Source: Anaerocolumna sp. (GTDB lineage Bacteria; Bacillota; Clostridia; Lachnospirales; Lachnospiraceae). From it: a stretch of 64,000 nucleotides of DNA. The notes beneath the pieces are model-generated. The model did not search any database. It saw only the letters and a list, made by a program, of their open reading frames with translations, and was not told where the DNA came from. Every line of letters begins with the position of its first letter. Position 1 is the first letter of the stretch. Location: positions 55,556 to 119,555 of the forward strand of contig JAQSXJ010000017.1 of assembly GCA_029256725.1 (NCBI GenBank). Reading direction: 5' to 3'. Positions 30,421 through 30,533 of this stretch are shown here, in pieces. A program made the position numbers and the translations under genes.

Positions 30421-30533
30421 CAGGAAAGTTGCATAAAACAGTAAAACTCATGCGCCTATGGAAAGGACTTCTTATGCCTTGAAATCGAAGCATGAGTTTT
30501 ACTGTTTTGTTCAACTTTCCGTCCCCTTGTGAA
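30421..30533. repeat. Long hairpin element, copy B (short, internally deleted form)
   Basis: Arms 30423-30453 and 30490-30520 (29 of 31 pairs); shares atgcgcctatggaaagg, acttcttatNccttg, gaagcatgagt and the ccgtccccttgtgaa tail with copy A. Confidence 0.82.

Follow-up and report, generated by a model that had tools for sequence, protein, structure and literature searches.

A short hairpin in the window (the whole 64,000-nt stretch of Anaerocolumna sp. DNA analyzed here), designated copy B, is probably the internally deleted derivative of a genus-restricted MITE with an interior that forms a single ~220-nt foldback. We assign a probability of about 0.7 to this reading, taken jointly with transposition in trans, shortening of the element in place, and selection on the fold. 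The mobility of a MITE and the deletion of a palindrome are ordinary parts of this account. Out of the ordinary are how strong the covariation is, how little the unpaired boxes vary, and how the G-U signal differs between the strands; the family matches nothing in Rfam.

Copy B is a hairpin that has lost its interior

The features of copy B and the gene facing it are listed below.

30421-30533, + strand: copy B, hairpin and conserved 3' tail (short form, as first reported)
30423-30453, + strand: 5' arm of the outer stem P1 (RNA fold)
30490-30520, + strand: 3' arm of the outer stem P1 (RNA fold)
30450-30466, + strand: conserved core block ATGCGCCTATGGAAAGG, 5' side of the internal loop (sequence; ortholog comparison)
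30467-30481, + strand: block ACTTCTTATGCCTTG (sequence)
30487-30496, + strand: block GAAGCATGAG (sequence)
30519-30533, + strand: conserved 3' tail CCGTCCCCTTGTGAA (sequence; flank alignment of the family)
30466-30467, + strand: deletion junction GGAAAGG/ACTTCTTA, identical in copies L002, L003, and L007
30376-30393, + strand: degenerate left terminal inverted repeat (TIR) TGATATAACTGTCAAACA, family consensus TGATTYAAGTGTCAAAAG (41-copy flank alignment; boundary taken from the family)
30543-30560, + strand: degenerate right TIR (boundary taken from the family)
30564-32060, - strand: galactose-1-phosphate uridylyltransferase-like gene (GalP_UDP_transf, GalP_UDP_tr_C), its stop facing copy B

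The conserved blocks and tail were found at the positions given in the preliminary description, as was the corresponding tail of a second copy in the window, copy A (CCGTCCCCTAGTGAA, 21521-21535). The pairing of the outer arms over 29 of 31 positions, also claimed there, was borne out by the fold, in which 9 and 21 pairs flank one mismatch, giving 29 Watson-Crick pairs and one G-U over the 31 positions. The MFE was -48.3 kcal/mol, with z = -8.8 for RNA and -8.6 for DNA, and 0 shuffled sequences folded equally well. The central domain is indeed missing from copy B, the stretch that spans the two core blocks measuring 49 nt versus about 160-182 nt in full copies; the interior of the ~220-nt hairpin is deleted, and the outer 30-bp hairpin is left.

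The extent of 30421-30533 holds for the hairpin and tail but not for the whole element, which spans about 30376-30560, since family conservation in the 41-copy alignment extends outward into the TIRs. Only ~3 nt separate the right end of the element from the stop of the galT-like gene, which runs toward it. Inspection of the flanks of this old copy identified no target-site duplication (TSD). At the orthologous sites in Clostridium sp. KNHs205 (G012) and a third species of the genus (G014), a decayed 3' half of the element remains, so that the sites are neither empty nor full; the insertion therefore predates the divergence of these species, in each of which it has decayed in its own way.

A third family copy, copy C, is also present in the window. 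Copies A and B belong to the main family, and copy C to a second subfamily (subfamily C).

21255-21558, + strand: copy A, full-length, with the 19-nt apical module (family alignment)
21583-22455, - strand: serine dehydratase alpha-chain gene, with copy A behind its stop codon
57936-58246, + strand: copy C, a full-length member of the second subfamily, with TIRs CTAGAGCCTCAAAATTTC and GAGCTTTTGACTCTCCAG (TIR and TSD comparison; empty sites in two relatives)
57928-57935, + strand: left TSD of copy C, ACATTATA
58247-58254, + strand: right TSD of copy C, ACATTATA, overlapping the TAA at 58250-58252 that ends an rpiR-type regulator gene on the - strand

Most full-length copies carry GCGNAGC, with N variable, at the apex (for example, at 58090-58115 of the window). 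GCGNAGC forms an unusually stable DNA mini-hairpin.

The family is restricted to one genus

A scan with the pattern GAATGCGCCTATGGAAAGG, allowing up to 3 mismatches, retrieved 90 copies in the genome of origin and 0 with the reversed pattern as control, and the copy B pattern is therefore not a matter of chance. The same scan retrieved 94 copies in KNHs205, 63 in G014, 3 in G010, and 1 in G009, and the controls gave zero hits in both the genome of origin and KNHs205. With copy B as query, BLAST against the genome of origin scored 40 places out of 122 candidates. These counts are of copies retrieved rather than of all copies. Family members are small (about 180-330 bp), non-coding, AT-rich, intergenic, and dispersed. 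Strong matches were restricted to one genus among the 61 relatives searched, and at the sensitivity used none was obtained in the viral (IMG/VR), phage, or plasmid collections. A literature search found no record of this hairpin family.

By genus restriction, MITE traits, and tight folding, the family resembles the pneumococcal BOX, RUP, and SPRITE elements (PMC3049150). Two further features are matched here, the modular size variation of BOX and the enrichment of SPRITE near gene 3' ends. BOX varies in the number of boxB modules, whereas the present family varies by nested internal deletions of one continuous hairpin and by a single apical module that may be present or absent; the comparison implies no similarity in sequence. 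The family is also like bcr1-bcr3 of the Bacillus cereus group as described (PMC3446304), which are MITE-like, high-copy, intergenic, and often found in UTRs. Some bcr families have a conserved RNA structure, and bcr elements have been shown to be transcribed (PMC3446304), whereas the present family is described from its sequence.

Three core-pattern hits in three unrelated MAGs (L072, L078, and L089) had neither hairpin nor tail and were set aside as chance matches. In KNHs205, the 3' tail is tandemly duplicated (CCGTCCCCTTGTGAAAACCT and variants) by the right end of five copies (L075, L086, L104, L107, and L117).

Covariation and unpaired boxes suggest selection on the + strand fold

MITEs are usually regarded as dead, drifting repeats. 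RNAalifold analysis of 41 full-length copies of this family gave a structure of 80 pairs, 40 of which had changes on both sides. With this structure held fixed, 98.4% of cells were paired, and the count of 40 double-changed pairs out of 80 compared with 16.7 in shuffles and 10-17 in slid alignments, 0 of 500 shuffles reaching as high; the fold was derived from the same alignment, which makes the control on paired cells lenient and the double-change measures the stronger ones. The arms of P1 were 94.8% Watson-Crick paired as they stand and 73.9% after arms were swapped among copies.

Comparison of orthologous copies revealed 95 cases in which changes on both sides had replaced one Watson-Crick pair with a different one. 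Gene conversion between non-allelic copies could move both arms together, mimicking compensatory change and inflating the number of double changes. Single-side changes on the + strand gave G-T in 56 cases versus A-C in 21 (p = 8e-5), counted over events that are not fully independent, the three genomes having a common ancestry. The unpaired boxes TTTTC and GAATTA, which were not used in collecting the copies, diverged by 0.6-0.7% between orthologs versus 8-10% for P1, P2b, and P3, which are the variable stems, and the leader diverged by 18%. The 18-nt core block diverged by 1.4%, a value biased low by the collection of the KNHs205 copies through an exact match to this block, and its conservation was therefore dropped as evidence.

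An explanation that we regard as possible, if on the unlikely side, is that complementarity of the stems arises by mutation of the DNA rather than by selection, with intrastrand template switching in replication rewriting an arm (quasi-palindrome correction). Long near-perfect foldbacks are known substrates of template switching; double changes after insertion are common in the family, P1 shows matched length changes on both arms, and the palindrome deletions described below show replication acting on the hairpin. A DNA process of this kind should, however, treat G-T and A-C alike, whereas a folded + strand tolerates G-T (G-U) and not A-C, and the ratio of 56:21 thus favors a selected + strand fold. 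Keto content of the 5' flank was 0.50, indicating no simple strand bias behind the excess of G-T, and template switching leaves the near-invariant TTTTC and GAATTA boxes unexplained.

These data suggest that selection acts on the full-length copies to maintain the hairpin of the + strand, most likely in RNA form, and that the pairing and the unpaired boxes would both be kept by selection acting on the folded strand. Both the strand asymmetry of the G-U signal and the near-invariance of the boxes argue for a selected nucleic-acid structure without an Rfam match. Nothing in the window reached the Rfam gathering threshold, and hits at relaxed thresholds were to unrelated microRNA-like and generic hairpins. 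No promoter was conserved in the leader, and searches of the family for promoter and terminator signals gave none. The suggestion in the preliminary description that the repeat might be a modular RNA is thus left plausible by the covariation and G-U bias, which favor a folded + strand, and is not helped by the Rfam, promoter, and terminator searches. One-to-one orthologous copies make the shortening of a palindrome, and the upkeep of a MITE fold by selection versus mutation, directly testable.

A small ORF beginning at the conserved ATGCGCC (MRLWKG...) was considered and rejected; the ATGYRCC variants alter its residues and track partner changes in the paired GCAT.

Copies lie behind stop codons in a preferred orientation

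In 69 of 88 copies, the right-hand gene had its stop codon toward the element; from the base of P1 to that stop the median distance was about 62 nt, individual distances being approximate with genes called by a simple ORF rule. On the left, the stop faced the element in 50 of 86 copies and lay farther off (Fisher p = 0.005). All three window copies sit behind stops, copy B behind that of the galT-like gene, copy A behind that of the serine dehydratase alpha-chain gene, and copy C behind that of the rpiR-type gene. With the common orientation, the mRNA of the upstream gene carries the complement of the strand with the G-U bias. Insertions placing the + strand into an mRNA may have been removed by selection, and most surviving copies would then be those that closely follow a stop codon, with the complement in the mRNA of that gene.

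The sequence evidence can tentatively be carried further, to a mobile, genus-specific structured RNA. Such an RNA would be formed by the ~220-nt + strand with the conserved internal-loop boxes AATGCGCCTATGGAAAGG and TTTTC/GAATTA, under selection at each of dozens of dispersed copies, spread by an IS4-type transposase, and kept only where the neighboring mRNA carries an inert complement; the short copies would be its inactivated remains. We doubt this extended proposal more than we credit it.

The position of the copies also raises the possibility that the elements serve the host as 3'-UTR hairpins, stabilizing or ending the mRNA of the preceding gene. The 69 of 88 copies found behind a stop codon in one orientation, at a median of about 62 nt, are what this would lead one to expect, and bacterial MITEs, REPs among them, have been described close to the ends of genes (PMC3733652, PMC3049150). 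We nonetheless consider such a role improbable. The tolerated G-U is on the + strand, and the mRNA strand is its complement; moreover, the hairpin is not followed by a T-run, no terminator was called there, and orthologous empty sites are viable.

The family is a MITE with an IS4-type candidate partner

The preliminary description had likened the repeat to a MITE/REP-type family, and the first half of that comparison is supported by TIRs, exact 7-8-bp TSDs, two empty orthologous sites for copy C, and an IS with matching ends in the same genome. The TIRs are CTAGAGAGTCAAAAGTTC in subfamily C and ATTYRAGTGTCAAAAG in the main family, those of the main family being more degenerate. An exact 8-bp TSD flanked 7 of the 21 subfamily-C pairs examined, window copy C included, and several others had an exact 7-bp duplication with a 1-base shift. 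Perfect 7-mer flank matches in the main family numbered 4 versus 0.47 expected from re-paired flanks. When sites in relatives were compared, as had been proposed, copy C was absent from both KNHs205 and G014, where the flanks are contiguous with 12 and 9 bases between them versus about 340 in the window; the sites of copy B retain the decayed 3' half described above.

A search with the TIR pattern returned a pair 1606 bp apart in the genome of origin (L223, G000:C85:9134-10739). This IS has the TIRs CTTGACAGTAAAAAGTTC and CTAGACAGTCAAAAGTTT and a 7-bp TSD, TAATTTA. Its transposase is interrupted by a single in-frame stop, and the IS4/IS701-type HMM hits fell below cut-off. The C-terminal ORF carries, from residue 217, the sequence YSYRFRIECTFREFK, which is a YREK motif of the form Y-(2)-R-(3)-E-(6)-K. 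Members of the ISPepr1 subgroup of IS4 are 1500-1600 bp in length, with a YREK motif, 7-8-bp AT-rich direct repeats, and ends of YT-AA-YTT---A (PMC2266710). The IS resembles this subgroup in its 1606-bp length, YREK motif, 7-8-bp AT-rich direct repeats, and 5'-CT ends (PMC2266710). It differs in a transposase that lies under all IS4/IS701 HMM cut-offs and contains one stop. Its agreement with the end consensus is partial; the ends begin with CT and have A at position 5, and positions 4, 7, and 8 differ (PMC2266710). It is the only related IS left in the genome of origin, and it is broken; related broken copies with similar ends were found in G009 and G002.

Given the matching ends, we infer that an IS of this type moved the MITE, the two having only their ~18-bp ends in common. 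Transposition as such is well supported; a DDE transposase of the IS4 type, supplied in trans, would have cut the element out at the TIRs and pasted it into sites rich in A and T, producing the 7-8-bp duplications. Larger family copies were considered as autonomous parents and rejected, the ~1.7-kb mid-copy inserts in two of them being ordinary IS110-type and IS3-type elements. These lie within hairpin copies L164 (G012:C3:3368126-3369773) and L165 (G014:C1:4275158-4276893).

The second half of the comparison, a REP in the strict sense, did not hold up, and we find it very unlikely that the family is a REP/REPIN-type element mobilized by an IS200-like (RAYT) tyrosine transposase. The family is palindromic, intergenic, and located downstream of genes in about 100 copies, and three decayed IS200-type remnants (L216, L220, and L222) lie 200-400 bp from other copies. 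The CGTC-/GTAG-tagged REPs are likewise high-copy palindromes downstream of coding regions, and GCCGTCC at the foot of P1 recalls the CGTC-tagged group (PMC3733652). The published REPs differ in being 20-40 bp long and without TIR-bounded TSDs, those with CGTC having 8-9-bp stems and 4-5-base loops; the CGTC REPs are without a dedicated transposase, and the survey text mentions no Firmicutes (PMC3733652). In the genome of origin, a Y1_Tnp search found no hit over the cut-off or at E <= 0.001, and hence no intact IS200/RAYT-type gene. Y1 genes in the relatives have other ends, and the TIRs and target duplications of the present family fit a DDE transposase.

Short forms arise by recurrent deletion in place

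Of 60 copies classified in the genome of origin, 46 were full-length (11 with the 19-nt apical module), 7 were <60 nt, and 7 were intermediate; short forms may be overrepresented here, the first 40 copies having been retrieved with copy B as query. In KNHs205, 50 of 53 copies were full-length. The coexistence of full-length and internally deleted forms, from which the preliminary description had started, is thus found across the family, and we attribute it to deletion in place. That description had also raised a shared deletion junction, and two were found. The junction of copy B (L001), GGAAAGG/ACTTCTTA, is exact in three other copies of the same genome (L002, L003, and L007). The second, GAAGTCC/GGACTTC, is identical across two species, in L006 of the genome of origin and in L112 and L126 of KNHs205.

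Orthologs show that the shortening occurs in place. L003 and L007 are short in the genome of origin, and their KNHs205 orthologs, L075 and L105, are full-length with both flanks matched; L006 is likewise short, and its ortholog L098 is full-length. The short forms are therefore recurrent palindrome deletions with the same junctions. The contrast of L003 and L007 with their full orthologs indicates at least two in-place origins of the copy B-type junction, or copying between loci by gene conversion. Through such common junctions, a clostridial genome provides its own replicates of a palindrome deletion.

As to mechanism, an AGG triplet precedes both ends of the copy B-type deletion in full copies, as is classically seen where replication slips across a hairpin. 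With the palindrome folded, replication would probably have slipped from one AGG triplet to the other, removing the inner hairpin at the resident site. The GAAGTCC/GGACTTC junction would reflect excision at the boundary of the inner stem. That copy B is an assembly collapse or a one-off, a thought prompted by the 176-contig draft state of the genome of origin, has a negligible chance of being correct given six other copies <60 nt and several intermediate ones in that genome, independent deletion copies on the large contigs of KNHs205, and the match of the L003 and L007 flanks to full-length orthologs on either side. The preliminary description had named an assembly collapse, or a unique short copy, as grounds for refutation; neither applies, the family having many members and short copies having been found independently in the assembly of another species.

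The 19-nt apical module, TACACATAGTGTACTCATG, was found in identical form to be present or absent between orthologs in both directions, in the pairs L028/L170, L026/L103, L180/L071, L191/L101, L018/L083, and L038/L118. This pattern suggests gene conversion among the dispersed copies.
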